Below the pieces are notes generated by a model. That model saw nothing but the letters and a program-made list of their open reading frames with translations. It was not told where the DNA came from and did no database searches. From positions 1 through 50,926 of the forward strand of contig JAILBN010000056.1 of assembly GCA_024680915.1 (NCBI GenBank): a stretch of 50,926 nucleotides of DNA, given 5' to 3'. Position numbers and translations under genes: made by a program. This document shows, piece by piece, positions 1 through 28,600 of this stretch. This DNA is from Treponemataceae bacterium (GTDB lineage: Bacteria > Spirochaetota > Spirochaetia > Treponematales > Treponemataceae). Numbering within the stretch: position 1 is the stretch's first letter; every line of letters begins with the position of its first letter.

Positions 1-1413
1 CTTGACCTGCCAGCTGATGCTAAATACATGCAGGAAATAGAAGCCCTGGCCTTAGGCCAGACAGACAAATCAAAGCTGATGAAGGAAGCAGGCTTCAAGG
101 AAGCTCCAGAAAAAGCACACAAGCTGTTGCTTGATACCGGCATATGGACTATATACCGTAACCCACATCCCTCACGGAGGGGTCTTTCAATGCAGTCCGC
201 CACGGAACACCTGCCCCACCCGCCAGAAGATGAGGACAGGCAGGAGCTTTCCTGTACAGGCTGGGCGATTGACAATGCCTGGAGTACGGATCCAGATGAC
301 GCCATATCCTTTGATGGAACTTATCTTTGGATTCATATTGCCGACCCTGCGTCCACAGTGACACCGGACTCTAAAATTGATGTGACGGCAAGGAACAGAG
401 GAAGCACTCTATATATACCAGAAGGAGCCTCCCGTATGCTTTCGGAGGAATCTTTGGAGGATTATGCCCTAGGTTTATGCGAATATAAGGATGGCAAACC
501 CACTGGTAAAAAGTCGAAAGCCCTTTCCTTCCGTCTCAGTCTTGATGAAAAAGGCTCTATTATAGATTCTGCTGTGGTAAAAACCCTTGTTCACGTTGAG
601 CGTCTCACCTATGAGCAAGCCGATGAGCAGAAGGAAAGCCGGGAGCTTGCCCCCTTTTTTAAGATAGCAGAACGCAATCTTGCAAGAAGGAGTGCCGCAG
701 GAGCTGTTTTCATTGAGCTGCCCGAGGTTCATATCTCACTTTCAGCACAAGACTCACAAGAAGAACCTTCCGTATTGGTCACCCAGTCTGAAAAGCCCCT
801 TGCTTCTGGAATGATCCGGGAAATGATGCTGCTGGCAGGCGAAGCTGCCGCAAAATTCGCCTTCAAGAACGGAATACCCTTCCCCTTCGTGAGTCAGGAA
901 AAGCCCGATATTCCTAAAGATATTCCATCAGGACTGGCAGGACAATACAAGCTTAGACGCTCAATGAGAAGTCGTTCTGTGGGTGTAACCCCCTCTCAGC
1001 ATGCAGGTCTGGGACTGGGTATGTACAGCCAGGTCACAAGCCCCCTAAGACGCTACAGTGACCTTATAGCTCATATACAGCTTAGAGCTTTCCTTGACGG
1101 AAGAGAGCTTCTGGACAAAGACACCATGCTGGAAAATATAAGCGCAGGGGATGCCGCATCTGGAAACGCATCAAAGGCGGAAAGAGAATCGAATATGCAC
1201 TGGACTCTTGTCTATCTTTTGCAGAATCCTGACTGGACCGGAACCGGTGTCGCAGTGGACATCAAGGGTAAGCAAGCTGTTTATCTTATTCCAGAGCTTG
1301 GACTTGAAACTGTCATAACGCCACAGAAAACACCTGAGCTAAACGAGACAATAAGACTGAAAGCAGGTAACATAAATATTCCGGAGCTTTCGGTCACCTT
1401 CCAGGAACTTTAG
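1..1413 (+). CDS. RNase II/RNB-family exoribonuclease, 5' end outside window
   Basis: The reading frame is open from the first base, so the gene starts upstream; an internal Met lies at position 28. Counting from that Met, residues 82-91 carry the RNB catalytic aspartate pattern (D82, D88, D90, D91), and a TSPLRRYSDL block near residue 338 matches the conserved C-terminal part of the RNB domain. RNB enzymes degrade RNA 3'-to-5' in the cytoplasm with Mg2+. About 60 residues follow the RNB domain and could be a reduced S1/OB fold, but no clear S1 motif is seen. Whether it is RNase R-like or RNase II-like cannot be decided without the N-terminus. The next gene faces it on the other strand. Confidence 0.85.
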   Translation, partial: LDLPADAKYMQEIEALALGQTDKSKLMKEAGFKEAPEKAHKLLLDTGIWTIYRNPHPSRRGLSMQSATEHLPHPPEDEDRQELSCTGWAIDNAWSTDPDDAISFDGTYLWIHIADPASTVTPDSKIDVTARNRGSTLYIPEGASRMLSEESLEDYALGLCEYKDGKPTGKKSKALSFRLSLDEKGSIIDSAVVKTLVHVERLTYEQADEQKESRELAPFFKIAERNLARRSAAGAVFIELPEVHISLSAQDSQEEPSVLVTQSEKPLASGMIREMMLLAGEAAAKFAFKNGIPFPFVSQEKPDIPKDIPSGLAGQYKLRRSMRSRSVGVTPSQHAGLGLGMYSQVTSPLRRYSDLIAHIQLRAFLDGRELLDKDTMLENISAGDAASGNASKAERESNMHWTLVYLLQNPDWTGTGVAVDIKGKQAVYLIPELGLETVITPQKTPELNETIRLKAGNINIPELSVTFQEL

Positions 1414-10745: not shown

Positions 10746-11313
10746 ATTCAGGAACAATTACAGAGCCCTGTCTTATTATCTCACATCCTCCCCTGCTTAC
10801 AGAAACGATGGTGGAAGGAAGAGCGTTCTTTTTATCACCATCATCTATTATCAGCTCAACATCATTACCGAACTCATACTCAATTTCTGCTATTTCTGAA
10901 AGGACCTTCTTTCCTGAGCGGTTTACACTTGTGGAATAAATGGGCGCCCCTACCCTGTGTATTATATCCCTCAGCCAAGAATCTCCAGGGCAACGGACTG
11001 CGACACTCCCTCCGGAGGAGGAACGCTTGTCATTAACGATTATTGTGAGAGCTCCAGGCCAAAGCGAAAAAAGCTCTTCCGGGACCTTGTCATCGGTTAT
11101 TCGGAAAATAAATTCAGGATCAGGAATCAACTGAATAAAAGGCTTGTAGGCTTCCCTTCCCTTTATCCGACGAATTATTCCGTCAGTGTCACCACTTCCT
11201 GTTATACCGGAAAAACCGTATACAGTATCGGTAGGGATAATAACTATTTTTTGATTTTTCAAGGCTTCAACAGTTGCCTCAGATGAGATTGCTTCAGACT
11301 TGAGGTATTTCAT
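10723..11313 (-). CDS. tsaC: Threonylcarbamoyl-AMP synthase (TsaC/YrdC/Sua5 family)
   Basis: TsaC makes threonylcarbamoyl-AMP from threonine, bicarbonate and ATP, the first step to the t6A modification of ANN-decoding tRNAs. The 196-residue protein has the family's IIPTDTVYGFSG segment near residue 27, then KGREAYKPF, LWPGALTIIV, VAVRCPGD and APIYSTSVNRSG. This is the short single-domain form without the Sua5 C-terminal domain. The start codon overlaps the end of the ftsB-like gene by 20 bases, implying translational coupling. Its own end overlaps smpB by 23 bases on the other strand. Confidence 0.92.
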   Translation of the reverse strand: MKYLKSEAISSEATVEALKNQKIVIIPTDTVYGFSGITGSGDTDGIIRRIKGREAYKPFIQLIPDPEFIFRITDDKVPEELFSLWPGALTIIVNDKRSSSGGSVAVRCPGDSWLRDIIHRVGAPIYSTSVNRSGKKVLSEIAEIEYEFGNDVELIIDDGDKKNALPSTIVSVSRGGCEIIRQGSVIVPESIRRVVS

Positions 11314-11809
11314 CGACTACTTCCACAGGCAGGGTAATCTCATCGTTCCCGTTCACGAGAACCGCATGAGGAGCTTTTTTCCTTTCAGCCCTGAAGGAGA
11401 AAAGGAGCATGAATATCATGGAGACACAAAAAGCTATCAAACCAGCAATTTTACATATGTACTCAGGAACAAAAGTTATCTCTTGTATTTTCACCACCGT
11501 TCCTGTGTCATATACATTGTGCTCAGCTACCCCTATGCCTGTGATCTTGATGATCCTCTCGCCATCATAGGAGAAGCCAAGACTACGGGCATAAGATTCT
11601 ATTATGGAACGATCTGTTTTCAAGGCATCATATTCAGACTGGAGCTGTTCATTAACTTTCATAAGTGATGAGACATTTGCTGTCAGCCTTAACTTCTGCT
11701 CATAAAGCTGATTATATGCATAAAAACCATTTCGTCCTGCGATAATTGAAAGCAATATATATATAAATGTGCCGATGCACACAGAAATCATAAACTTTAT
11801 ACGTGTCAT
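11294..11809 (-). CDS. FtsB/DivIC-like membrane protein with coiled coil
   Basis: From the ATG at 11809 (protein beginning MTRIKFMISV, 171 residues) there is a membrane segment at about residues 7-23, then a short coiled-coil stretch (QLYEQKLRLTANVSSLMKVN, about 31-50), then an ARSLGFSYDGERIIKI segment. The order short N-tail, membrane helix, heptad repeat and RSLGF-type motif is that of septum-formation initiator proteins (FtsB/DivIC). Unusually, a second membrane segment lies near residues 117-137, followed by a charged tail, so it is an atypical member. The frame is open to 11890, but no ribosome site marks an earlier start. The 282 bases upstream, to the giant gene, are AT-rich with no further gene. 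Confidence 0.6.
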   Translation of the reverse strand: MTRIKFMISVCIGTFIYILLSIIAGRNGFYAYNQLYEQKLRLTANVSSLMKVNEQLQSEYDALKTDRSIIESYARSLGFSYDGERIIKITGIGVAEHNVYDTGTVVKIQEITFVPEYICKIAGLIAFCVSMIFMLLFSFRAERKKAPHAVLVNGNDEITLPVEVVDEIPQV

Positions 11810-12043
11810 AATCTGTTTTTCGGCATTGAGACACTTTTTTTTTAACATAATCTTTGAAGATTTACACAAGGAAAAAAACAAGCTCAACAACTAAAAAAAA
11901 GCACATTAATGAAATTGCATTTTATTGCCGATAAAAATACGGGGGTCTTGTATCCTTTTCATAAGAATGATCAGTTTGAAAAGTTTGTTTTTTTTAACTG
12001 ATTTTATTTTTACAAAAACCAAAGTAAAATGGTTTTTGAACCC

Positions 12044-12066
12044 TGAATCAAGAAGTTTTTGATTCA
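12044..12066. promoter_or_regulatory. Perfect 8-bp hairpin in the leader of the acidic-protein operon
   Basis: TGAATCAA (12044-12051) and TTGATTCA (12059-12066) form a perfect inverted repeat around a 7-base loop. It ends 17 bases before the GGAG ribosome site of the gene starting at 12092. It has no T run after it and does not look like a terminator; an operator or a translation-control hairpin are both possible. Confidence 0.45.
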
Positions 12067-12091: not shown

Positions 12092-15000
12092 ATGTCATTA
12101 GAACTTGATAATATCAATGAACAGAATGAAGAAAAAAAGACACAAGAATTAGAGCAATTTGGAGTCTGGATAAAAAAGACAGCTTCTGAAAGCTCCGGTG
12201 GAAAGGCTGACAACTCCGAAGACATTAGTAAGCCGGATTTTTCTTCTGACTTCGATGACCCATTCAGCATTCCATCCTCTATATCCTCTGCAGACGGTTT
12301 TGAAAGTGCTTCTTTTTCTGATCTCTCAGATTTTAATATACCAGAAGACCCTCTTATCGATAATGAAGCGGACAAGCAGATTGAGGAAGAATGGACTTTT
12401 GACACTTCAGATTTAGACATTCCTGATATACCAGAATTAAATGAAGAAGAAACGAATGTAGAAGAAGAGGATCTACCTATATCAGCTGCAGAAGCTCCTC
12501 TTCCCCAAGATCAAGCAGCTCATGAAGAGCCAGAAAAAACTAATGACTCAATAGATGAAACCAGGGCAGAAGATACAATATCCGAAGAAGAAGCCAAAGA
12601 AATTCCTCCAGAGGAAAACATCAATAAGCCTCTATCAGAAACGGATGTTCCGGATATAACGAAAGAAGAGAGGATACAGGATCCCTTCAGCAACGATTTT
12701 ATTCCGTCTGCAGCTACCAACGTTCTGGATATTTCAGATTTGTCCGACTTCGATTTTGGGGATGACAGTTCCTTCCCTGTTCCAGACAGTATAACAGGTC
12801 AATCTTATATAGAAGGATTAGAGGAAAAAACACCAAGGACTGATTCGGAAGAAATAAAGGATATTAACCAGAATACTGATTTTTCAGATTCAGTCTTAAA
12901 TACAGAGGAAGAGGGCTCAATAAAAAGAACTGAGGAAGATAGTAAAGCTGAGGAAGATAATTTAATAGAAGATATATCCATGGATTCATTCATTGATGAA
13001 GCTGCAGAAGCAGAAGTGACTGATGAAAATGAAACTGTAGATACAGCTGCAGAAGATCCACCGGTAAAGGTAGAAACCGAGAAAAAAGAGATATTGTCAG
13101 GATATGAGGAGGTTTCCTTAGCAGATCTTTCAGCTGGAATAGAGCTACCCCTTGTGAAAGAGGAAAAGGTCATTACTCCTCAACCATCTCTTGATCAAAA
13201 TTCCTTTGATATGCAGGAAGAGCCTGGCGAAGAATTATTCGGTGATATACAATTCGAGGATATAACATCATCTATTCCTATAGAAAAACCTGTAGTACCG
13301 AAGGCAGAAGAAATAGATGAAGTCGCTGAAGCTATATTCAACAATGAGACAGAGGAAATTGACATAGATTCATTCCTGAATGACTCTCCTCCTCCAAAAA
13401 TGGGAGGAACAGAGGAAATAAGCCTTGAAGATTTTATGTCGGACTCCGACTTTTCGGATGTCTCAGAATTCCAGGATTTTATATCATCTACGACCACGGA
13501 AAAGAGTGATATTCTTGATGATCCGCCGATAGAAATGTCTCTTTCTTTCGATGATTCTTTTGTTCTCGAAACAGAATCAAAGGCAGAAGATGATATAGAA
13601 ACAGACATTCCGATTACAGAAGATTTCATATCTGACATCGTGACTACAAGTGAAGAGGGCTTCGATAATTTCGATGATATTTTTGAGAATATTACGGATA
13701 TGAATGCTCCACAGGAGCCAGAGCCACAGGTAGAAGAAAAGCATGACACATCTGTTACCTATGATGAGGTCTCCGAATTCGATGACCTCTTGAGTTCTTT
13801 TGAGGATTCAGCTGTATCGACAGAAATTCCAGTAGTTACACAGCCTTCAAAAACAAATAAAAAGGTTGACTTTGATATTCAAGTCAACCTCGATGAGTCT
13901 GAGATAAAACAGGAAGTCATTGAGACTCCGTCCGACTCTGAAGAAGATATTGCTGTATCCTTATATACAGACTCTGAATATAAGAAAACGGCTATCTCCA
14001 GTGGATCTGTTTCATCTCAAGCATCATCATTCTCAATGGCAGACATAGACGATAGTATATCTTTTGTAGACGAAACCACTGATAGTCCGGCCTCATCTCT
14101 TATTGACGATTTATCTTTTGCCGGTATAGAAGTTGTTGACATAACTGAAAATCCCACTGGCAGCATTGAAACCAAAGAAACAAAAGAGGAAGCTACTTCA
14201 GAAAATGATGCGGATGTGATTGCGGATGAAGAAAGAAAAACAAAGAAGGAAACAGAGGAAGCTTCTGACACAATAATAATTGAAGATGAAAAAGAAAGGG
14301 ACAAGGAAGCCTTAAATGATGATAATTTCTCTCCATCCTTTGATGATTCTAATTCCTTCGATTTTCCAGAAATAAATGATGAATTATTCGAGAAAGCAAT
14401 GTCTGTTGCTCTAGAGCCTGAAGACAGGCCAGACGAAACTATAGATATTCCAGAGGATGAACCATCTTCAGATATTTCTTTCGATGATCTACCTGATGTG
14501 GACGATCTTTTCGAATCATCAGATACACCTTCCACGGATAGCGATCTCCCCTCTTTGGATGATATACCTGTATATATAGAAGAAAACAATGCCATAGAAG
14601 AAAACAATAACGAGGAAGCTTCAGCAGGCTTGGCTGCTGGTTTACTTGGAGCAGGAATAGTTGGAGCTACAGAAGCGTTTAAAGAAAAAGAAGAAAGGCC
14701 TGTTGTTGAGAATTTTGATATTCCAAGCCTGGAAAATAGTGATCTATCTGAAAGTGATGACAGCTTCGATTTAACAGATATAGATATCCCTGTCAACGAT
14801 GATGACTTTAATTTCACTGAGGAAGAGCTGCAGGTAAACCTTGATGATACTGCAACCGAACCTGTCTCTGAAGCTATTCCAGAGCCTGCAAAAGATGAGA
14901 TAACAGAAGATTTCAACACAGAAGAACTTGTTTCAGAACCAGCAGCAGAAGAGATCGCACCTGAGCCAGCGAAAGAGGAAACATTACCAGAAGAGCTTGC

Positions 15001-17731
15001 TCCAGAGCCAGTTGCTGACGAAGCAAGGCCAGAAACTGCTGAAGATATAGCTTCTGACTTCGCCACTGAAGAAATTGCTCCAGATGCCTTTGAGACGCCG
15101 GCAGCTGATTTCAACATAGATGAAGCCAAGGACTTTGGAAAAGCTACCGAAGCTTCTGCCGAGGAAGAACCCTCGGCATTTTACGCAGAGAGCCTTGCCG
15201 AAGCTACTGTCGAGGATACTCCATCATCATTTGACGCAGATAGTCTTGCCGAAGCTACTGCCGAGGAAGAGTCCCCTGTTATCGATGAAGCAGCTTCCGA
15301 CTTTACAACAGCGGATTTTGACACCATAATTTCCGAGGACCCGACTGCAAATATTAAAGAGACTAGTGACGGAGCTCCTTCCATCACAGATTATTCTTCT
15401 ACCTTGGGCGAAGAAAGCATTGCTCCTGAAAGTGATGACAGCTTCGATTTAACAGATATAGAACTCCCTGTCAACGATGATGACTTTAATTTCACTGAGG
15501 AAGAGCTGCAGGTAAACCTTGATGATACTGCAACCGAGCCTGTCTCTGAAGCTATTCCTGAGCCTGAAAAAGATGAGATAACAGAAGATTTCAACCCAGA
15601 AGAACTTGTTTCAGAACCAGCAGCAGAAGAGATCGCATCTGAGCCAGCGGAAGAAGAAGCAATACCAGCAGAGCTTGCTCCAGAGCCAGTGGCTGAACAA
15701 GCAAGGCCAGAACCTGCTGAAGATATAGCTTCTGCCTTCGCCACTGAAGAAATTGCTCCAGATGCCTTTGAGACGCCGGCAGCTGATTTCAACATAGATG
15801 AAGCCAAGGACTTTGGAGAAGCTCCCGAAGCTTCTGCCGAGGAAACACCATCGGCATTTGACGCAGAGAGTCTTGCCGAAGCTTCTGCCGAGGAAGAGGA
15901 AGCAATACCAGCAGAGCTTGCCCCAGAGCCAGTTGCTGACGAAGCAAGGCCAGAACCTGCTGAAGATATAGCTTCTGCCTTCGCCACTGAAGAAATTGCT
16001 CCAGATGCCTTTGAGACGCCAGCAGCTGATTTCAACATAGATGAAGCCAAGGACTTTGGAGAAGCTCCCGAAGCTTCTGCCGAGGAAACACCATCGGCAT
16101 TTGACGCAGAGAGTCTTGCCGAAGCTTCTGCCGAGGAAGAGGAAGACAAGGATAACAAAACAATTACTGATTTGAATGAAGCATATCTAACAGAAAAAGT
16201 AGCTGATTCTGAATTTGAGGATATGTCTCCTTGTTGTAATTCCGAAACAGAACATACAGAGGAAGATATCAATCTTGTAATGAACGAAAAAGCTTACGAC
16301 GATATTGCCCCTGATAACTTAACCTCCTCTTTCGAGGAAAAGCCTGAAGAAGCTTCAATTACCGATTTTGAAGGAAACTCTATGCCCCAAGAAAGTTCTT
16401 TTGGCAATGAAAGTCCTGAGCAAGATGAAGAAGACAAGGTATCTCCGACAGCTATAGGAGCTGCAGCTATAGTAACAGCAACGACTGCAGGGGTGTTAGG
16501 AACTATACAAGAGGATAATTCAGAATCAAACGAATTAAATACAACAAATGAACTTGATGTTGTTGAAAATTGCATATATAATGATAAACAAGGTGGTATG
16601 GAGGTTATTTCTGACATGAATGATTTTGATATGAATGCTGATAACACAATAGACAACTCTACAGAGAATCCAGTTATAGACAAAATAGTCAAAGAATTAT
16701 CTTCTCTCAGAAATGAAATGGCTTCCATGAAGGCTGAGTTGGATATTCTTAAGAAAGCAGGCACTGAAAATGCTGCTGTACCGAATGATATAAAACTTCC
16801 GGAGACAGAAAGCAATGAATCCACAGGCTTTTTCAGTGGAGAAGAAGATGATGAGACTATCGCCTTGTCTGGAGACGAATTGAACAATATTCTTAACAGT
16901 GCTGACTTCACAGAAGAAACCGCAGAGCCTGTGCTGCAAGACGATCTTCTGACCTCTTCCGAGGAAATAAAAGAAGAGCCTGTCGCTTCAATACCAGAAG
17001 AGAATACAGCAACCGACAATACGGCTCAGGTTGAAGATGATTTAGCTTACGAGAACGGTGAAGGTCCTGATACATCGATTGATTTTGATGAAAATGTCAC
17101 AGAACCTGTTATTGACGATATTAATTTCGATATTGATAATGATGAACATCAAACAGAAGAGAATATTCCTGATGAAATTGATATTCCTTCAAATAATGAC
17201 TCTTTTGTAGTAGATGCATCATCTACAGATTTCCTTGATGACAAAGTTCCGACACTCGATGAAGCCTTATCATCCGATAAAGTTTCTTATCTAAATGAAG
17301 AATCATCTGATAATGTTTCCTTTGATGAAGCAAAGGATGAAAAATCAGAAGGCTTTGTTCCTATTACACAGGAAGAGTTGACTTCAACCTTCGATCATGC
17401 ATCAGCAAATGAAATCGAAGATACAGAAGAAGAAATAGATGATACTCCTGCAGAATCTGTTTTTGAAGGAGAGCAGTGGGAACAGGAATCCTTTGCTGAC
17501 CAAGAAAGCGATGAAATCCCAGAAGAGCTGCCGGAGGAAGAACCCCTTTCTTCTTCAGAAGCAGCCGCAGAGCCTTCTATGTCTGATGATCTCAAGAATG
17601 ATGTAAAATCTGTTCTTTCTTATATGGATCAGCTCCTGGAGAACTTACCGGAAGAGAAAATCGCTGAATTCGCAAGATCAGAGCATTTTGAAGTATACAA
17701 GAAACTTTTCACAGAGTTAGGACTTGCCTGA
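12092..17731 (+). CDS. Giant acidic repeat protein, scaffold-like, function unknown
   Basis: I do not recognise this 1879-residue protein. The ATG at 12092 is preferred over the one at 12059 because a GGAG lies six bases upstream. Most of the sequence is Glu/Asp/Ser/Ala/Pro-rich with hardly any Lys, Arg or Cys, so it is probably disordered and strongly negative. Short motifs recur (FDIPSL-, SLEDF-, SFDDLPDVDDLF-like), with long Ala-Glu-Pro repeats between about residues 887 and 1350. Two Gly/Ala-rich hydrophobic stretches lie at about 843-863 and 1452-1473. A coiled coil (IDKIVKELSSLRNEMASMKA and onward) lies at about 1529-1557. The last 45 residues look folded and amphipathic. No signal peptide is seen. 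It heads an operon with four genes spaced 0-7 bases apart, including two DUF115 proteins. Role by inference only: an intracellular scaffold. Confidence 0.8.
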   Translation: MSLELDNINEQNEEKKTQELEQFGVWIKKTASESSGGKADNSEDISKPDFSSDFDDPFSIPSSISSADGFESASFSDLSDFNIPEDPLIDNEADKQIEEEWTFDTSDLDIPDIPELNEEETNVEEEDLPISAAEAPLPQDQAAHEEPEKTNDSIDETRAEDTISEEEAKEIPPEENINKPLSETDVPDITKEERIQDPFSNDFIPSAATNVLDISDLSDFDFGDDSSFPVPDSITGQSYIEGLEEKTPRTDSEEIKDINQNTDFSDSVLNTEEEGSIKRTEEDSKAEEDNLIEDISMDSFIDEAAEAEVTDENETVDTAAEDPPVKVETEKKEILSGYEEVSLADLSAGIELPLVKEEKVITPQPSLDQNSFDMQEEPGEELFGDIQFEDITSSIPIEKPVVPKAEEIDEVAEAIFNNETEEIDIDSFLNDSPPPKMGGTEEISLEDFMSDSDFSDVSEFQDFISSTTTEKSDILDDPPIEMSLSFDDSFVLETESKAEDDIETDIPITEDFISDIVTTSEEGFDNFDDIFENITDMNAPQEPEPQVEEKHDTSVTYDEVSEFDDLLSSFEDSAVSTEIPVVTQPSKTNKKVDFDIQVNLDESEIKQEVIETPSDSEEDIAVSLYTDSEYKKTAISSGSVSSQASSFSMADIDDSISFVDETTDSPASSLIDDLSFAGIEVVDITENPTGSIETKETKEEATSENDADVIADEERKTKKETEEASDTIIIEDEKERDKEALNDDNFSPSFDDSNSFDFPEINDELFEKAMSVALEPEDRPDETIDIPEDEPSSDISFDDLPDVDDLFESSDTPSTDSDLPSLDDIPVYIEENNAIEENNNEEASAGLAAGLLGAGIVGATEAFKEKEERPVVENFDIPSLENSDLSESDDSFDLTDIDIPVNDDDFNFTEEELQVNLDDTATEPVSEAIPEPAKDEITEDFNTEELVSEPAAEEIAPEPAKEETLPEELAPEPVADEARPETAEDIASDFATEEIAPDAFETPAADFNIDEAKDFGKATEASAEEEPSAFYAESLAEATVEDTPSSFDADSLAEATAEEESPVIDEAASDFTTADFDTIISEDPTANIKETSDGAPSITDYSSTLGEESIAPESDDSFDLTDIELPVNDDDFNFTEEELQVNLDDTATEPVSEAIPEPEKDEITEDFNPEELVSEPAAEEIASEPAEEEAIPAELAPEPVAEQARPEPAEDIASAFATEEIAPDAFETPAADFNIDEAKDFGEAPEASAEETPSAFDAESLAEASAEEEEAIPAELAPEPVADEARPEPAEDIASAFATEEIAPDAFETPAADFNIDEAKDFGEAPEASAEETPSAFDAESLAEASAEEEEDKDNKTITDLNEAYLTEKVADSEFEDMSPCCNSETEHTEEDINLVMNEKAYDDIAPDNLTSSFEEKPEEASITDFEGNSMPQESSFGNESPEQDEEDKVSPTAIGAAAIVTATTAGVLGTIQEDNSESNELNTTNELDVVENCIYNDKQGGMEVISDMNDFDMNADNTIDNSTENPVIDKIVKELSSLRNEMASMKAELDILKKAGTENAAVPNDIKLPETESNESTGFFSGEEDDETIALSGDELNNILNSADFTEETAEPVLQDDLLTSSEEIKEEPVASIPEENTATDNTAQVEDDLAYENGEGPDTSIDFDENVTEPVIDDINFDIDNDEHQTEENIPDEIDIPSNNDSFVVDASSTDFLDDKVPTLDEALSSDKVSYLNEESSDNVSFDEAKDEKSEGFVPITQEELTSTFDHASANEIEDTEEEIDDTPAESVFEGEQWEQESFADQESDEIPEELPEEEPLSSSEAAAEPSMSDDLKNDVKSVLSYMDQLLENLPEEKIAEFARSEHFEVYKKLFTELGLA
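14750..15893 (+). repeat. Long direct repeat inside the acidic-protein gene (678-base offset)
   Basis: The sequence from 14750 to about 15210 recurs from 15428 to about 15890 with only scattered substitutions. The copies are in frame, offset by 678 bases (226 codons). A non-repeated Ala/Asp-rich stretch separates them. Confidence 0.85.
15656..16141 (+). repeat. Tandem duplication of 243 bases (81 codons) in the acidic-protein gene
   Basis: Unit 1 (15656-15898) and unit 2 (15899-16141) are adjacent, in frame and almost identical. The few visible differences include GTGGCTGAACAA versus GTTGCTGACGAA near the start of the unit. Such near-identity implies recent duplication and makes copy-number change by recombination or slippage likely. 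Confidence 0.92.
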
Positions 17732-17733
17732 AA

Positions 17734-18663
17734 ATGGGTCTCTATAAGCTGATTACAGAAAACTATCTGCGTTTTCAGAAAGATGCGGCAGTTTTCCAGG
17801 GACTGTTGAATCATGCGGAGCATATACTTAATTCCGTAAGCTTCAACAGTCTTACTGATGAGGCTTTTATCTTTTTCAACTCCTTTGTAGAAGAGCTTGG
17901 TATCTCAAAGATGGCTGTTCTTTTACCTGACAACAATCAGTTCAAAATGTATCTTTCCTATGGCTTCAAATCAGGAACAGAAGAACAAATGGTTTCTACA
18001 AAGGATTTCTGGGAAGGAACTCTTCCTGGTGACAGATGGCTTTCAGTAACAAAAGAAGACATAGTTCCCTTCAGACAGATTTTTTCTGATGAAGATAACG
18101 CTGAGATCTCAATCCTGCATGTAAAAAGGATGGAGTTAAAAAAAGTTCCAATAATCATATTGATTACTGAAGGAACAAAAATCTCCCTTGTAGATACCGA
18201 ACTGGTTGATATTGTTCTCCCCTCTCTCTATCCTTATATAGAAAAATGTCTGAATTTAAAAAGACTTACGGACAATATTACTTTTCCTTCAGAATTCGAC
18301 ACAGCTGTAAATATCGAGAATTCACTTATTGAGAATTCAAAAGGTTTTCTTTTCGAAATTTCTCTTGATTCCTTCTTTGCTTCTTTCCCAAATCTTACCG
18401 GCGAAGCAAGACAAATTCTTTTCAAGGTTTTATTCAACGCCCTTAGTCTTCTGATAAAAGTTCCTGATATACTTTATGTATACCAGGACAAGATAAAGAT
18501 AATAAGATTCAGTAACAATGAACTTGATGAAGACCTTTTTTCCTATCAGCTGAAAAAAACGATTTCTCCAGTCTTTTCAGAAGAAAAAGCAGATTTGATT
18601 GATATAAAGAGCTCAGCTTCTTCTTCTGATATAAATGAGCTGACAGATTTTCTTCATCGGTAA
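17734..18663 (+). CDS. GAF-like hypothetical protein
   Basis: I do not recognise this 309-residue soluble protein. The N-terminal half (about residues 25-165) reads like a GAF sensor fold: a long helix (LNHAEHILNSVSFNSLTDEA), then AVLLPDN-type beta strands, then ILITEGTKISLVDTELVDIV near 148-167. No ligand-binding residues can be assigned. The C-terminal half has predicted helices and strands without a familiar motif. It starts two bases after the stop of the giant acidic gene and ends seven bases before the first DUF115 gene, so it must share their transcript. By position it could be a regulator or partner of the DUF115 proteins; that is inference. Confidence 0.65.
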   Translation: MGLYKLITENYLRFQKDAAVFQGLLNHAEHILNSVSFNSLTDEAFIFFNSFVEELGISKMAVLLPDNNQFKMYLSYGFKSGTEEQMVSTKDFWEGTLPGDRWLSVTKEDIVPFRQIFSDEDNAEISILHVKRMELKKVPIIILITEGTKISLVDTELVDIVLPSLYPYIEKCLNLKRLTDNITFPSEFDTAVNIENSLIENSKGFLFEISLDSFFASFPNLTGEARQILFKVLFNALSLLIKVPDILYVYQDKIKIIRFSNNELDEDLFSYQLKKTISPVFSEEKADLIDIKSSASSSDINELTDFLHR

Positions 18664-18670
18664 TCATAAA

Positions 18671-20200
18671 GTGAGCATCTTTTTCAAGGAAAGCAAAGAC
18701 GGAAGTCTTACCTGCAGCAAAGATTCCATTTCCCTTCATTCTTCTTTCAACACTAAAAAAGAGGCAGAACGTTTTGTCAGTATGATTGACGTCTCTTACC
18801 TACCCTCTCATATCATAATAACCGGGCCCTGCATAGGATATACAGAACACTTCCTTAGAGAACGCTTTCCCCAATCACAAATCATATCAATACAATATTC
18901 TGACCAATTTAATAAATACAATTCAAAATGGGATAAATCCTTTTTATTTACAGAAGGTAGCGACGTCAACATTGTAAGTGACGAGCTCTTTTCTTTAATC
19001 GGAGAAGAGAAATTATTCTCCACATTGTTTCTTTCTTGGAAACCTTCGGAAAAAGCATGGCCTGAACTTGCATCTAAGCTCTGGACTTCATTCAAAGACT
19101 TACTTGCTAAAGCAGAATCTATAATCTCGACAAGAAACTATTTCAATAAACCCTGGTTCATAAATACCTTAAACTTTTTTACCAGCATACAAAACATCTG
19201 CCATCCTCAATTGACAGATAAGCCCATAATCATCACTGCAAGCGGTCCCAGTCTTTCTTCTGCCCTTCTATTCCTTAAAAAAAACAGGCAATCATATATT
19301 CTTCTTTCAGCCTCATCCTCTATTCTACCACTTATTGAGAATGGAATAATTCCTGATTACTGCATATCAACAGACGGAGGCTGGTGGGCAAAAAAACATC
19401 TTGAACCTTTGTTGCGCAAAGGAATTTCAATTCCCCTGATAGTGCCACCAGAAGCAGCTGTCCCAAAGGAAATACTATCTTTTATGCCTATAATACCAAT
19501 GAGCTACAATGATTTTCCTGACAATCTTTTTTTCAAACAAACAGGAATACCATTTATAGCAGGAGAAAGGAATGGGACTGTAAGCGGTACAGCCGCACTT
19601 CTTGCTCTTAGTATTACAAGTGGAAAAGTTTTCTTCTGTGGGCTGGATCTATCAAGTGCCAAAGAATACCAACACACCCAGCCAAATGCCCTGGAGCTTA
19701 TAAACTCGAAAAACGACTGCAGGATAAAAACTCTTGAAACTCGTTGCTCAGCAGCTTCTCTTCCTGGCAACAAAGCTCTTACGATATACAGGAATTGGTT
19801 CGCATCTCGTAATGATACCTTCTACAACAGAGTTTCCAGACTAGTCACAAAAAGGGATAAGCTTGCCAAGATTCCTCATATGGACGACATTTTCATTGAC
19901 GAGAATCCGACAGATTTATTTCCGGTCACCTCCGGAAGCAGTTCTCTCGTGACAAACAAAATTAAAATCAAGAAATCTAAAATCGCGAAGGATATTTATC
20001 ATCTTTTAAAAAATGTAAAGGATGAAATTGAAACAAATCCCGAAAAAACATATAATTATGACTGGTACAGAATGGCAGCCTTGAAAGACCTTATACATGA
20101 AGAAAGATCAGGGAAAAAAACAATTTCGCCAGAAATAATAAAAAAAACAAGAGTATTCTTGGACGAAGCTATTTCAAAAATCTATAAAATCGGGAATTAA
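18671..20200 (+). CDS. DUF115 / MptE-like protein, Maf flagellin-glycosylation family (first copy)
   Basis: The 509-residue protein carries the DUF115 core: IIITASGPSLSSA near residues 186-198, followed by ILLSASSSILPLIENGIIPD and YCISTDGG (about 230-237). This is the nucleotide-binding pattern of 6-hydroxymethylpterin pyrophosphokinase MptE-like and Maf proteins. A second family segment, ERNGTVSGTAALLA, with FFCGLDL lies near 297-330. Maf proteins in other bacteria transfer nonulosonic acids to flagellins, and glycosylated flagellins are known in Treponema denticola. The start is a GTG at 18671 with no clear ribosome site, suggesting coupling to the gene before. The next gene starts on the base after its stop and is a second, divergent member of the family. 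Confidence 0.82.
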   Translation: MSIFFKESKDGSLTCSKDSISLHSSFNTKKEAERFVSMIDVSYLPSHIIITGPCIGYTEHFLRERFPQSQIISIQYSDQFNKYNSKWDKSFLFTEGSDVNIVSDELFSLIGEEKLFSTLFLSWKPSEKAWPELASKLWTSFKDLLAKAESIISTRNYFNKPWFINTLNFFTSIQNICHPQLTDKPIIITASGPSLSSALLFLKKNRQSYILLSASSSILPLIENGIIPDYCISTDGGWWAKKHLEPLLRKGISIPLIVPPEAAVPKEILSFMPIIPMSYNDFPDNLFFKQTGIPFIAGERNGTVSGTAALLALSITSGKVFFCGLDLSSAKEYQHTQPNALELINSKNDCRIKTLETRCSAASLPGNKALTIYRNWFASRNDTFYNRVSRLVTKRDKLAKIPHMDDIFIDENPTDLFPVTSGSSSLVTNKIKIKKSKIAKDIYHLLKNVKDEIETNPEKTYNYDWYRMAALKDLIHEERSGKKTISPEIIKKTRVFLDEAISKIYKIGN

Positions 20201-21754
20201 ATGAGTTCAGACATATTCTATACAGGTACCAGGGAAGCGAAAAACGGAAGCATCGTACCTGTCCTTTCAAATGGAAAAACCTTTTACTCTGAATATAATC
20301 CAGACAGAGATATAGGCTTCTATGCGGATAAAGCCGAAATAGTTAATTCTGGTTTCATTCTTATCGGAGGACTAGGCGACGGCTCACACATAGCTGCTGT
20401 GCTTGATAAAAACCCCTCTGCTACGATAATGATTTTAGAATTCAACGATGAGACAATAGCTTTTTTGTTTTCAAATAAAATATGTGATCCGGAAATACTT
20501 GAGAACCCTCATATTATATTAACTACTCCGGAAAAGCTTTGCAGGGATATAAAGAACAACTATATCCCAATAATCCAAGGGTCATTCCTCTATCACCCGG
20601 TTAAAATGTGGCAGCTTCTTTTTGAGAAAGAATATGGTACATCCTTAAAAGACAAAATAAAAGAAACCCTTCACGACATCGCCTCAGATTATGCTACACA
20701 AGCAAGATTCGGAAAGCTTATGTTCACGAACATCCTGAAAAACATGGCTTTGCTTTCAGGCAGATCTAAAAATAAAAACCTCACAAGTGTGACAGAATTT
20801 GCCGGTGATTCCAGAAAAGCAGAGGCAGCTGTTATAGGTGCAGGACCAAGTCTCGATGAATCAATAAAACTTCTTAAGAAAAATAAGGAAAGATTCTTTA
20901 TAATTTCCACAGACACTGCCTACAGAAGTCTTTATAAAAATGCTATAAAACCTGATTTGGTCGTTACGATTGACGGACAGAATTCCAGCATATCACACTT
21001 TTTGGGTATCGATTCCTCGGAAACAGCAGTTGCGGCGGATATATGCGCTAATGCCGCCGCCGCACGATACCTTGCCGGACAAGGTTGTCCCATTAGTTTC
21101 TTTACCACAGGTCACCCCATGGGAACCTTAATAAACGACTGGTATAAAAATGAGAGCAAAGCAAATAGAAGCATACTTCCTCTGATTAATGCCGGCTTCG
21201 GGACTGTTCTTAGTGCGGCGGCGGATCTGGCGGTAAAAGCAGGATTCACATCAATTCACTTTTTCGGAGCGGATTTTGCATATGAATCAGGTAAACCCTA
21301 TACGAAAGGAACCTACCTTGATGAAAACTTCTTGACTGTATCCAACCGTCATAGAACCCTGGATAACTCATTCTGCGCCCTTTGTTACAGGACAGAGCTT
21401 ACAAAAGAGGGCAGACTCTACACTAATTCACTGCTTTCTTCATACAAACGGAGTCTTAATTTCTTCATAGAATCCCGTTCTGAGAATTTTTATTTTGAAA
21501 GCACTTCAGATAAAATCCGCTATAATTCAGAGTCTGTCATGATAAATAAGGGGAAAGCAGAAGACTCTGCCCCTCTCTACTTCGATTATGAATGCTTTTT
21601 TAATTTTTTAATGACCCGATTAGTTAATGAGGATAAAAGTATTCTATATTCCTTACTACCTTTTGCAACATGGCTGAAAGAAAAAGAAAAAAATGCCGAT
21701 ATAAATGATATATACATGAAAGCCATTCATATTATGGCTTTACATAGGAGCTGA
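20201..21754 (+). CDS. DUF115 / MptE-like protein, Maf family (second copy)
   Basis: This 517-residue protein has the full DUF115/Maf layout: an N-terminal Rossmann-like part with LIGGLGDGSHIAAVL near residue 53, then AAVIGAGPSLDESIKLLKK at about 208-226, TDTAYRSLYKNAIKPD, and LVVTIDGQN near 252-260. A C-terminal PLINAGFGTVLSAAADLA with IHFFGADFAY follows. Its ATG directly follows the TAA of the preceding DUF115 gene, with no free ribosome site, so translation is coupled. The two copies differ widely in sequence, so they probably have different substrates or form a heteromer rather than being recent duplicates. A cytoplasmic role in flagellin glycosylation is inferred from the family. Confidence 0.85.
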   Translation: MSSDIFYTGTREAKNGSIVPVLSNGKTFYSEYNPDRDIGFYADKAEIVNSGFILIGGLGDGSHIAAVLDKNPSATIMILEFNDETIAFLFSNKICDPEILENPHIILTTPEKLCRDIKNNYIPIIQGSFLYHPVKMWQLLFEKEYGTSLKDKIKETLHDIASDYATQARFGKLMFTNILKNMALLSGRSKNKNLTSVTEFAGDSRKAEAAVIGAGPSLDESIKLLKKNKERFFIISTDTAYRSLYKNAIKPDLVVTIDGQNSSISHFLGIDSSETAVAADICANAAAARYLAGQGCPISFFTTGHPMGTLINDWYKNESKANRSILPLINAGFGTVLSAAADLAVKAGFTSIHFFGADFAYESGKPYTKGTYLDENFLTVSNRHRTLDNSFCALCYRTELTKEGRLYTNSLLSSYKRSLNFFIESRSENFYFESTSDKIRYNSESVMINKGKAEDSAPLYFDYECFFNFLMTRLVNEDKSILYSLLPFATWLKEKEKNADINDIYMKAIHIMALHRS

Positions 21755-21757
21755 CAT

Positions 21758-22954
21758 ATGAATACCAAAAGCTTCAGTTTTTTTGTATTTTTTATTCTCA
21801 TCATATTCTTAACAGCAGTCTTATACTTCGGAATTGCTTTAGGCTATACAATCTCAACGAATTCATCAAAACTAGAGGAAAGATTCTCTTCTCTCACAGG
21901 AAAACTATCATCTATAGTAAATGATAATAATCTTTATTCCAATTCAACAAAAACCATACTAGAAAAAGAACTTATTTCCGACCCCTATGTCTCTTGCATA
22001 ACCCTCAGCAATAAATCTTCAGTTTTCTTCGCATGGCCTGCAGATTCCACTCAATTTATAATCAACAAGGATGGAAATCCTGAAATATTAGAAAATTCAC
22101 ACATATTAAAGAAATATACAGCTTCAATACAGACTAAAGCCAATGAGACAATAACTCTTACAGCCGCTTTATCCTCAATAATAAAAGCAGATTTCTACGT
22201 GATAAGTTCCCGTGCCTTCATAATAATTCTTGCAGGTACTATTTTTGATTTTCTTCTTTTGATTTACCTTGGTCTTTTTTCCACAAAAAAGGAAGCATCG
22301 TCAAAAGAGATGGAGAACACTCTTAATGACATAGAAGCAGAGATAAATAATATAGCAAGCAAAAAAGAAGCAAAAAAAGAGGAAGAGAAGCCCCAGAAAG
22401 CTTTTACAAAAAACCAGAATGACGAGGCAGATGACCCCTCAGGTCTTTTCTCAGAGAAAACCGGTTTCGGTTGGGAATCTTACATTGAGCCCCGCCTTGA
22501 CGCAGAGCTTGTCAGAGCGGCATCAAATGAGATGGATCTTTCTTTGTTTATTATAAACATCAAGAATATCGAAAAAAATGTTTCTGCATCACAAGCTGTA
22601 TGCCAAGTACTCTTAAAATTCTTCCAATACAATGACATGATTTTTGAATACGGAGAATCCGGGTACGCAGGAATACTTGTCAATACTGACATAGACAACG
22701 CCATGATCGCCTCAGAAACTCTTTATACAGAGCTTAAAGAGGTTTTTGCAGAAAACAACTGTAATCCAGAATTCGGAATCGGTCTTACATCACGTTCTTT
22801 AAGGCTGATGACAGGAGCCAGACTCCTGAATGAAGCAAAAAAAGCAGCAGAGAAAGCCCTTGAGGAGAAAAACCTTCCTATTGTAGCTTTCCGTGTCAAT
22901 CATGAAAAATCAAAACAATATCTGGCTGAAGAAGCTGAGAAATATTCAAAATAA
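21758..22954 (+). CDS. Two-helix membrane protein with a degenerate GGDEF domain
   Basis: In the 398-residue protein, membrane helices at about residues 7-30 and 150-170 bracket an extracytoplasmic sensor-like region. A charged, Lys/Glu-rich linker follows (about 180-220). The C-terminal 160 residues align with a GGDEF diguanylate cyclase domain: SLFIINIKNIEK stands at the strand that normally carries the metal-binding Asp, FEYGESGYAGILV at the GGDEF loop, FGIGLTS at the SIGV position, and AKKAAEKALEEK at the ending helix. The GGDEF signature reads GESGY and the metal ligand is lost, so cyclase activity is not expected; a binding or signalling role is possible. AGGAGCTGACAT gives a good ribosome site for the ATG at 21758. 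It closes the operon, four bases from the convergent TPR gene. Confidence 0.75.
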   Translation: MNTKSFSFFVFFILIIFLTAVLYFGIALGYTISTNSSKLEERFSSLTGKLSSIVNDNNLYSNSTKTILEKELISDPYVSCITLSNKSSVFFAWPADSTQFIINKDGNPEILENSHILKKYTASIQTKANETITLTAALSSIIKADFYVISSRAFIIILAGTIFDFLLLIYLGLFSTKKEASSKEMENTLNDIEAEINNIASKKEAKKEEEKPQKAFTKNQNDEADDPSGLFSEKTGFGWESYIEPRLDAELVRAASNEMDLSLFIINIKNIEKNVSASQAVCQVLLKFFQYNDMIFEYGESGYAGILVNTDIDNAMIASETLYTELKEVFAENNCNPEFGIGLTSRSLRLMTGARLLNEAKKAAEKALEEKNLPIVAFRVNHEKSKQYLAEEAEKYSK

Positions 22955-24748: not shown

Positions 24749-25684
24749 TTATCCTCCAATAAGTAACGTAACTATTGTCTTTATATCCATATTCATACCA
24801 GTACAGCTGATAGCATTCTCAGCAAGCTGCTCTGTCGTGACGGTACCATCAGACTGAACCTTCTTGAAAAGAAATAGTGCTGGTTTTACGGCATGTTTGT
24901 TCACAAAATTCATCTTCATATCAAGCATATAAATATTCTGATCATTCTTGGAGAAGGAACCAGAGGCAGTATCAGCTGCCAGGGTTATTCCGTTCCCGAC
25001 GATACTTTCAATGAAATCTCCCGCTTTGGACGTGTAGAAGGAAATATTTTCTCCAGCTTGAGATAATATCTCACTTTTACTGTATACAGTCGAATCTGAG
25101 GCAGCAGGAGCCACTTCCAAAGAAGCAGGGCTGGAATCGTATTCGAATTGCCTTCTTAACAGAGCTCTTACATCAGAAGAAGAAACAAGCATGACCTTGT
25201 TCTCAAGTATTGATATCTGGAATCCTATATCACTGATGAAATACTTGCAAGAATAGCCGCTTTCATTATAAGACAGAGTTTTCCAGCCATTTTCCTCCGA
25301 AAAAATCATGTTTATGAAAAAAGGGAAATCTCCTACAATGGCAGCATTGACAGCATTTGTCTCAAAATTGACGGATGCATAGAAAACTTCAGAACGGTCT
25401 AAAAGCTCAGCGCTGTTCTTTTCTGTCAAACCTGAAATATAATTATTTATAATGGTATGACACAAATCTCGATTTTCTTTTACAGGAATTTTTACATACA
25501 TCGAATCATTGTCAGGCAGGACATCCACCACAGAAAAGGGCTTTGCCATTCTAAGGGTCTGGCATCCTGCCATAAGACAAAGAAATGAAATACAAAATAT
25601 AGTATAAAAAAAATTCACTGTGACATGGTCGAAACGAATGTAAGAAAAAAATCTGTCCGATGATTTCCTATTCTTTCCAGTCAC
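24749..25684 (-). CDS. Hypothetical lipoprotein
   Basis: I do not recognise the family. The frame is open to a GTG at 25702, but a GTG at 25684 has an AGGAG ribosome site upstream and avoids overlap with ileS; that start gives 311 residues. A charged N-terminus is followed by a hydrophobic segment and the lipobox LMAGC near residue 41, so the mature protein should be lipid-anchored. The rest is a soluble, beta-rich-looking domain without catalytic motifs. It ends in TLLIGG, with its stop overlapping the ribosome site of the phosphoribosyltransferase gene. Confidence 0.68.
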
Positions 25685-25694
25685 AGCAAAACTC

Positions 25695-28600
25695 CTATAC
25701 ACGGGCTATAACTGCCTTCCAGGTCTCATCACCAGCCTCAATGGAAACGGCACTGTCCGGTAAGGAAGAAGTCCATGCTATCGAAGTAGCAAGAGTCTCA
25801 CCACTTATATAGTCATTGAATGACTCATAAGATTTCTTCAGGATTTCAGAGCCAGTAAGCTTTATCGTGATACGATCGGTGACCTCAAAGCCGCTTTCCT
25901 TACGCAGGTTCTGAATACCTCTGACGAAGTCCCTGACGAAGCCTTCCATTTTTAGGTCCTCAGTGATCTCTGAGTCAAGGGCAACGGTAAGAGTTCCGTC
26001 ATTGACCACCTTGAGGGTAGCCTTCTCAAGCCTGTCCACGATAATCTTAGAGGAATCAAGCTCAACAGGCTTGCCTTGGACATCAATGCTAAGGGTAGAG
26101 CCCTCAAGGATAGACTGGATTGAAGTCTGATCAAGCTGGGTAATTACGGCTGCGGCGGCCTTCATAAGAGGACCAAGCTCCTTTCCAAGGGTCTTGAAGT
26201 TCGCTTTTGCAGTATACTCGACAAGCTCATCCTCTCTTTCATGGAAGACGACCTTCTTTACATTAAGCTCCTCTCTTATGGATTCCTCCATCTCAAGAAG
26301 AACGGCTTTCTCTTCAGGGTTCCTTGTGACGAACTCTACGCTCTTAAGGGGCTGCCTGTTCTTAAGGTTGTACTGGCTTCTAAGGCTGCGTCCCATGGAG
26401 ACGGCTTTCTGTACAGTCTCCATCTTGAACTCAAGCTTAGGATCCCTCTTTGACTCATCACATACCGGATAATCGGCCAGATGTACAGATAGAGGATCAT
26501 CCTCAGTCCTAAGATTCTGCCACATAGCCTCTGTAATGAAGGGCACCACAGGAGCTGCGACCATGGCAAGGGTTTTAAGGGCTATATAAAGAGCCTCGTA
26601 AGCTTCGAACTTGTCATTATCGTTCTCGCTCTTCCAGAAACGACGGCGGCTGCGGCGGATATACCAATTATTAAGCTGGTCGATATAGGAAACGATAGGA
26701 TCTATGGCACCTGACAGGTCGTAATCATCAAGAGCCCCAGAGACTTCCCCGGCAAGCTTCTGTGTTACAGAGAGAAGCCAGCGGTCAAGAGGATTTGTGG
26801 GAAGGTTCTCGTCGAAGGCATGGCCTGTAGCCTTCACACCATCGATATTGGCATAGGTAACGAAGAAGCTGTAGCTGTTCCAAAGAGGAATCAGAATACC
26901 CTTAAGGATATCACGTACACCATCATCACTATATCTCAGGTCATCAGCCTTTACAGCTGCAGAATGCATAAGGAAAAGACGGAGGGCATCCGCACCGAAT
27001 TGCTTGATTACAAGGGCAGGATCGGTATAGTTACGGAGGCTCTTTGACATCTTCTTACCATCTGAGGCAAGGACAAGACCATTGACCACACAATTCTCGA
27101 AAGCCGGCTTGTCAAACAAGGCAACGGCAAGTACTGTCAAGGTATAGAACCAGCCACGGGTCTGATCCAATCCCTCGGAAATGAATTTTGCAGGGAAATG
27201 GCTGTCAAAGTAATCCTTATTCTCAAAGGGATAATGGTTCTGTGCATAAGGCATTGAGCCGGACTCAAACCAACAGTCAAGAACCTCTGGAATACGCTTC
27301 ATGGTTCCGCCACAAGAGCAGGGAATGGTGATTTTGTCAACGAAGTGCTTGTGAAGGTCCTCTGGATAGGTACCAGAAAGATCAGCAAGCTCCTGACGGC
27401 TGCCTACACAAATCTGCTTTCCGCAGTCTGGACATTCCCAAACAGGAATTGGGTTTCCCCAGTAGCGGTTACGGCTTATAGCCCAATCACGGGCATTCTC
27501 AAGCCATTTACCGAAACGGCCGTTCTTTATGTGCTCAGGCTGCCAGTAAATACTCTGGTTTGCCTTTACCATATTGTCACGAATCTTTATTACGTTCACG
27601 AACCAGCTGCCCACAGCACGATAAATAAGAGGGCTGTTACAACGCCAGCAGAAGGGATAGGAGTGGAGTATCTGGTCACGCTTCACCAGCTTTCCCTCTT
27701 TCTTGAGGCGGTCCATAATATCCTTGTCGCAATCCTTTACGAAGCGGCCTTTGTAATCAGGAACCTCGGCTGTGAACTTACATTCATTGTCCACAGGACA
27801 GATTGTGGGAACACCACTGCCCTGGAAGACCTTATTATCATCCTCACCAAAGCCAGGTGCCGTATGTACTATACCAGTACCATCCTCGGTGGAAACGAAA
27901 TCGGCGTTGAAAACACGGAAAGCTCCGATAGAGGCAGGATTTCCATCACTACCGTCAGTAGCCTTATAGAGGTCAGCAAAATATGGGAAAAGAGGCTCAT
28001 AACGAGAATCCTTAAGCTCACTACCCTTCTTCTTCCATACGATCTCACAGGCTGCAGGATCCTTATAATAAGCGCTCAGACGGCTCTCAGCAAGAATATA
28101 ATACTCATCACCGTCATGAACCTTTACGTAATCAATATCCGGTCCCATGGTAAGTCCCAGGTTTGAGGGCAAGGTCCATGGAGTTGTAGTCCAAGCCAGG
28201 AAGTAGGTGCAGCCGTTTGCCATATCAGGGTCATTGGCGGCAGGTGAAGCCTCCTTTACCTTGAACCTTATCGTAATGGCAGGGTCATGTACCTCTTTGT
28301 AGCCCCCCTGGGCAAGCTCGTGGTTTGAAAGAGGGGTGGCACAGCGGGGACAGGTCGGAAGGATGTAATGACCTTCGTAGATAAGTCCCTTATCCCAGAG
28401 ACTCTTGAAAACCCACCAAATTGACTCCATATACTCAGGGTTCATGGTCTTGTAGTCGTTGTCGAAATCGACCCATCTACCAAGGCGGGTAATTGTCTCC
28501 TGCCATTCTTTTGTATAGCGCAGCACACTGGCCCGGCAAGCCTCATTGAATTTGTCGATTCCATATTGCTCAATATCTGTCTTAGAGTTCAGGCCCAGCT

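Follow-up and report, generated by a model that had tools for sequence, protein, structure and literature searches.

Five adjacent plus-strand genes lie in a 50,926-nucleotide stretch of DNA from a Treponemataceae bacterium (assembly GCA_024680915.1, contig JAILBN010000056.1). The whole stretch, here called the window, lies on contig 44 of a 3.15-Mb draft genome. In their order on the DNA the genes encode a very long acidic protein (SCAF), a GAF-GGDEF protein (GAF*), two DUF115 proteins (DUFa and DUFb) and a membrane protein with a degenerate GGDEF domain (GGD*). We put at about 0.5 the probability that these genes constitute a spirochete-specific flagellin-modification module, assembled on a scaffold and using pseudo-GGDEF proteins as adaptors. 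Its evidence is the conservation of the gene set and its order, the co-occurrence of its members with flagellin, their pattern of loss in flagellum-less lineages, and the position of SCAF behind fliS in other classes of the phylum. In Treponema and Leptospira, both the biology and the virulence of these spirochetes depend heavily on periplasmic flagella. A search of the open-access literature turned up no account of the unit. The proposed function resembles known flagellin glycosylation, while the scaffold together with paired pseudo-GGDEF proteins is a new combination.

A five-gene unit conserved in Treponemataceae and across Spirochaetia

An earlier sequence-only reading of the window had proposed the five genes as one operon, with intergenic gaps of 2, 7, 0 and 3 bases. 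A check of the open reading frames (ORFs) gave exactly these gaps. Gene order in relatives was then compared. The order SCAF, GAF*, DUFa, DUFb, GGD* is kept at nearly all Treponemataceae loci sampled; locus L063 is without GAF*, and at L048 GGD* lies elsewhere. DUFa is present in 52 of the 59 sampled relatives' genomes. All five genes are found in a single-contig genome of only 1,139,633 bases (L066), as small as that of Treponema pallidum. Some lineages carry a single opposite-strand gene between DUFb and GGD*. At 20 further loci, from other families of class Spirochaetia, SCAF, DUFa and DUFb are contiguous in 14. Since the order is kept in the family and at these loci of other families, the genes are not apart in most relatives, the outcome that the sequence-only reading had named as evidence against itself.

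The association is far beyond chance, the set being contiguous in relatives across the order and the class. It is scarcely credible that the genes are unrelated housekeeping neighbors held together by shared transcription only. LepB, HemW and Sua5 are likewise conserved near the operon, as that explanation would have it, but the core recurs elsewhere: SCAF-GAF* stands behind fliS or ATP synthase genes, and SCAF-DUFa-DUFb occurs without the flanks seen in Treponema. On the other side of SCAF, almost every locus that covers the region has a DivIC-type gene in divergent orientation, and this neighbor stays beside SCAF even in flagellum-less relatives.

Two Treponema pallidum proteins were considered. 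TP0179, a length-variable hypothetical protein, may be the T. pallidum SCAF, subject to confirmation of the numbering; TP0183, which is reported to bind DnaA and SbcD by two-hybrid (PMC2386257), could not be fixed in position as an operon member and was not used. Nothing on TP0181 or TP0182 was found in PubMed Central.

Association with flagellin and with fliS

Co-occurrence was scored in 248 genomes of the class, counting any DUF115 paralogue (E value 1e-20) and taking PF00669 as flagellin. Both were present in 169 genomes and neither in 49; DUF115 occurred without flagellin in a single genome (G220, 81% complete) and flagellin without DUF115 in 29. All 29 belong to one family (f24), which is probably the Borreliaceae, judging by genomes of about 0.9-1.9 Mb and flaB near 148 kb. 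The flagellin of Borrelia burgdorferi is reported not to be glycosylated (Sterba et al. 2008, listed among the references of PMC6236881), and a module for flagellin modification predicts why Borrelia differs. For SCAF, 151 genomes had it together with flagellin, 4 had SCAF only, 47 flagellin only (29 of them in f24) and 46 neither. Fisher p-values on such counts overstate independence, the genomes being related; the absences nevertheless span several families.

The loss pattern was followed locus by locus. In family f14, two genomes of genus g48 (G067 and G127) lack flagellin and DUF115; at their locus, where GAF* is missing too, GGD* comes directly after SCAF. A congener (G241) has both flagellin and DUF115. 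In four flagellin-less genomes of the window's order SCAF is reduced to 195-212 residues and stands alone beside DivIC; in family f16 it has 207 residues. Overall, SCAF measured 566-1796 residues for 47 proteins from flagellate genomes and 195-419 for six from flagellum-less ones (Mann-Whitney p 9e-8, in a test that ignores phylogeny and left out contig-cut proteins and two others, L047 with 272 and L060 with 377 residues, whose SCAF is short although DUF115 is present). Because the DUF115 pair and GAF* are lost in flagellum-less genomes, they go with flagella; because SCAF and GGD* persist in such genomes, these two have some role independent of the flagellum. At the loci L109-L112 of flagellum-less Treponematales, a protein of about 200 residues keeps only the SCAF tail and still diverges from the DivIC-like gene, a hint that the tail has a role related to division.

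FliS serves flagellin as its export chaperone. Outside the class, SCAF and a GAF protein beginning with MGL lie directly behind fliS in L115, L116, L122, L123 and L127; in L115 and L116 fapA is adjacent, and in L122 and L127 the gene after SCAF is a shorter MGL frame or an unassigned one. At five other loci (L114, L117, L119, L120 and L125) SCAF-GAF* stands directly behind the ATP synthase genes atpD and atpC, a context that is unexplained. The flagellar link drawn in the sequence-only reading is strongly supported by the flagellin co-occurrence, by the losses in flagellum-less lineages and by the adjacency to fliS. It had to be narrowed in one respect: the role is not purely flagellar, SCAF and GGD* outliving flagella in some lineages.

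Such persistence is what the main rival explanation would predict, namely that SCAF, GAF* and GGD* form a general organizer of the cell pole or division site to which flagellar clients, the DUF115 enzymes among them, were added, the flagellum being one of several. SCAF is found phylum-wide, it survives in flagellum-less genomes either as the short protein divergent from DivIC or with GGD* alone, and it lies behind the ATP synthase operon in other classes. A general organizer sits poorly, however, with the sharp shortening of SCAF where flagella are missing and with its loss in 46 of the 50 flagellin-less genomes of the class, and we hold it to be rather unlikely.

Several observations weigh against a flagellin-modification module. 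The chief weakness is that the DUF115 count includes the canonical Maf paralogue and cannot single out DUFa and DUFb. In addition, neighbors within a lineage are not statistically independent, no member of the operon lies beside flagellin genes in the source genome, SCAF persists without flagella in several lineages, and many genomes of the phylum have SCAF-GAF* with no adjacent DUF115. The window itself contains no flagellar gene among those scanned, the flagellins being on other contigs.

Properties of the encoded proteins and a proposed mechanism

SCAF is, as the sequence-only reading stated, an acidic protein of 1879 residues with a coiled coil (a segment near residue 1535). It contains 30% Asp+Glu against 5% Lys+Arg, for a net charge of -483, and 17% Ser+Thr. 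Neither SCAF nor GAF* of the window matches Pfam or NCBIfam. SCAF length is hypervariable, from 272 to 1879 residues, and so is its middle; the tandem duplication of 243 bp in the window, a recent one, suggests rapid length change of the acidic region. Three pieces recur among orthologues: the N-terminal motif L-[ED]-x-Y-G-V-W-V-K, the coiled coil and, at the C-terminus, a tail in which 16 positions are invariant among 39 sequences. A profile of the tail matched 155 of the 248 class genomes and 180 of 247 phylum genomes, once per genome with a single exception. The tail is thus phylum-wide; the N-terminal motif was seen only in class Spirochaetia and was not found in SCAF of other classes. It is lost in flagellum-less Treponematales. 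The idea that YGVWVK binds DUF115 was weakened, as the motif persists in DUF115-less genomes of two families. PopZ is an acidic disordered polar scaffold, and SCAF may be like it, with an acidic disordered middle between short conserved ends.

GAF* is the usual downstream neighbor of SCAF throughout the phylum. It had been called GAF-like from its sequence; structure prediction bears out the label and reveals a second domain, a dead GGDEF, that had been missed. There is no Pfam GAF match in the window protein or in any of the 33 family members. In the AlphaFold model (predicted local distance difference test, pLDDT, 83.6; predicted template-modelling score, pTM, 0.79), residues 37-182 adopt a GAF fold (3ci6: Z 11.7, 3.1 A, 138 residues aligned) and residues 182-309 a GGDEF fold (3ezu: Z 11.1, 3.2 A, 121 aligned; 4zmm, DcsBis: Z 11.0, 124 aligned) with no recognizable catalytic signature. 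Among Foldseek matches, the GAF-GGDEF cyclase DcsBis ranked first. In other classes, the proteins encoded next after SCAF begin with MGL, align with the Treponema family in profile-profile comparison (246-272 columns, probability 92-96%), and in some cases match Pfam GAF_3 (PF13492, 2.1e-14) and GGDEF (2.9e-4). These positional orthologues give independent support for the two domains of GAF*. GAF-GGDEF diguanylate cyclases (Pseudomonas DcsBis, 4zmu) share its GAF-then-GGDEF fold order; GAF*, in contrast, lacks the catalytic signature, is tied to SCAF, and has a conserved MGL start and a repeated GLLxKA motif. The motif occurs 84 times in 57 N-termini, 46 times at residue 2 and 38 times in addition, as compared with a mean of 5 (standard deviation 2) in shuffled sequences.

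The description of GGD* as a two-helix membrane protein with a degenerate GGDEF domain was correct. In its model (pLDDT 85.2, pTM 0.44) a periplasmic alpha/beta domain is flanked by two membrane helices, after which comes a GGDEF fold that superimposes on PleD (Z 19.5, 2.5 A, 153 aligned), and PF00990 matches 23 of 33 orthologues. Membrane GGDEF sensors whose periplasmic domain is N-terminal share this architecture, but all 33 GGD* members have lost the GGDEF signature, in place of which they carry sequences such as GESGYAG. In alignment with solved cyclases the loop bearing the metal-binding motif is missing, and where inspected the inhibitory RxxD site has its Asp but Q or K in the position of Arg. 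Since the signature is replaced and the metal-binding loop is missing, GGD* is a pseudo-GGDEF protein; as GAF* and GGD* each have such a domain, the operon contains two. These two domains gave no sequence profile match to each other. In short, GGD* and GAF* have the fold of diguanylate cyclases; GGD* lacks the GG[D/E]EF signature and the metal-binding loop, and GAF* has no recognizable signature.

Two GGDEF folds, one of them in a protein with a periplasmic domain between two membrane helices, could suggest a signalling operon in which GGDEF proteins synthesize or bind cyclic di-GMP and thereby regulate motility. The loss of the signature in 33 of 33 GGD* members, the missing metal-loop segment, the replaced Arg of RxxD and the lack of a signature in GAF* make this highly improbable. 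The nucleotide signal invoked by the sequence-only reading is likewise unsupported, catalytic residues being missing from both GGDEF domains, and no evidence pointed to redox sensing. The GAF domain, or the periplasmic domain of GGD*, may have a ligand.

DUFa and DUFb match PF01973 (3.9e-21 and 1.1e-31) and have no other informative match. This central MAF_flag10/MptE-like domain is present in 39 of 39 members of each family. The two are paralogous over 376 columns, with flanking domains conserved between them, and retain the GPSL and Asp motifs of PF01973. They had been described as DUF115/Maf-type, of which only the first part holds. Both window proteins lack PF20157, the N-terminal domain of Maf, which occurs in 4 of 39 DUFb orthologues and in none of 39 DUFa orthologues. 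On another contig the same genome has a canonical Maf with both domains (618 residues, L035:1039-2892), one of two more DUF115 genes. Because PF20157 is missing and the canonical Maf lies elsewhere, DUFa and DUFb should be filed under DUF115 and not as Maf. With known Maf proteins (Aeromonas Maf1, Clostridium botulinum Maf, Magnetospirillum Maf 5mu5) they share the central PF01973 domain and GPSL-type motifs, and, as for Maf, DUF115 presence tracks flagellin in the class. Unlike Maf proteins of 618-666 residues, they have about 510, occur as paired paralogues, are not near flagellin genes, and are accompanied by a scaffold and pseudo-GGDEF proteins. The canonical Maf gene adjoins genes for a penicillin-binding protein and a second signal peptidase, not flagellin genes; the fourth DUF115 protein (548 residues, L036:9775-11418) is encoded between a SurA-like foldase gene and lepA.

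PF01973 also includes archaeal MptE, a 6-hydroxymethylpterin diphosphokinase, and the profiles of both DUF115 proteins match solved 8sd5, the pterin pyrophosphokinase, as well as the Maf structure 5mu5. The pair might therefore act on something other than flagellin, such as SCAF itself, which is rich in Ser and Thr, an envelope glycan, or a pterin-like metabolite; the lack of the Maf N-terminal domain in DUFa would fit. We consider such a target improbable, because flagellin-less genomes have no DUF115, one incomplete genome excepted, and because SCAF persists in some genomes that have no DUF115. Archaeal MptE, moreover, is a single domain of about 240 residues with no flagellar association, unlike DUFa and DUFb with their conserved flanking domains.

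NeuB (PF03102), the donor-sugar synthase for nonulosonic acid, is encoded in 52 of the 59 relatives, including the 1.14-Mb genome and the source genome. The FlaB proteins of Treponema denticola carry a 450.2-Da glycan that is essential for filament assembly (PMC9481697), and no paper assigning the transferase machinery for it was found in the open-access literature. The unit offers specific candidate genes for flagellin glycan transfer, retained even in the 1.14-Mb genome.

In the flagellin-modification module, SCAF would be a long tether, acidic and disordered, that binds through short conserved ends and joins soluble GAF* (through its GLLxKA docking motifs), both DUF115 enzymes and, via GGD*, the inner membrane. 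The DUF115 pair would most likely transfer or process a nonulosonic-acid-type sugar on the periplasmic flagellins while these are in the cytoplasm, before a FliS-type chaperone delivers them to the gate for export. Neither pseudo-GGDEF domain would work as a cyclase; both would serve as adaptors or as switches gated by a ligand. On this evidence it is plausible that the complex is anchored in the membrane and includes degenerate signalling domains, as the sequence-only reading envisaged, with the contacts and the membrane recruitment being presumed. More tentatively, the disordered phylum-specific scaffold and its pseudo-GGDEF partners could form a hub where enzymes of flagellin modification are gathered at the membrane close to the cell poles. 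Perhaps it also collects export and division factors, the dead GGDEF domains being reused as structural adaptors. If so, a polar-hub scaffold of this kind would be a class of bacterial organizer not yet described. The operon would also be a clear case of dead GGDEF domains kept as a partner pair beside a conserved disordered protein.

Coordinates and other features of the window

The start of SCAF was placed at 12092 and not at the upstream TTG at 12059, because relatives share the MSLE.. start with the YGVWVK motif soon after it. Long reverse-strand ORFs within SCAF (e.g. 14017-15129) were rejected as shadows of its biased composition.

Features of the five-gene locus (window positions)
Feature	Position	Strand	Basis
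SCAF, acidic low-complexity scaffold-like protein, 1879 aa	12092..17731	+	ORF, composition, orthologue comparison
SCAF N-terminal motif FGVWIKK (class-wide consensus L-[ED]-x-Y-G-V-W-V-K)	12158..12178	+	orthologue comparison
SCAF 243-bp in-frame tandem duplication, two copies, 97% matches	15649..16145	+	repeat found in window
SCAF conserved coiled-coil segment (IVKELSSLRNEMASMKAELDILKK)	16667..16768	+	orthologue comparison
SCAF C-terminal tail, about 45 residues, almost invariant, found throughout the phylum once per genome	17564..17728	+	tail profile
GAF* protein, 309 aa: N-terminal MGL and GLLxxA motif, GAF domain, degenerate GGDEF-fold domain	17734..18663	+	
GAF* N-terminal repeated short motif GLLNHA (consensus GLLxKA)	17800..17817	+	
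GAF* GAF fold, residues 37-182	17842..18279	+	structure comparison
GAF* hidden GGDEF-fold domain without catalytic signature, residues 183-309	18280..18660	+	structure comparison
DUFa (DUF115-1), DUF115/MptE-like protein, 509 aa, domain at residues 173-330	18671..20200	+	PF01973
DUFb (DUF115-2), DUF115/MptE-like protein, 517 aa, domain at residues 191-362, DUFa paralogue	20201..21754	+	PF01973
GGD*, membrane protein, 398 aa	21758..22954	+	predicted structure, PF00990 in orthologues
GGD* parts: helix 3-56, periplasmic domain 62-140, transmembrane 143-177, degenerate GGDEF 225-380			predicted structure
DivIC-like gene, divergent neighbor of SCAF, context outside the operon	11294..11890	-	

An Rfam scan of the window gave no match, and a promoter and terminator scan found 30 promoter-like sites where 30 were expected. 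A minus-strand ORF of 2402 residues lies at 43273-50481. A homologue of the T. pallidum lipoprotein TP0453 is encoded at 24752-25702 on the minus strand, adjoining a UPRTase-like gene and ileS, and this block is found downstream of the operon in many Treponemataceae.

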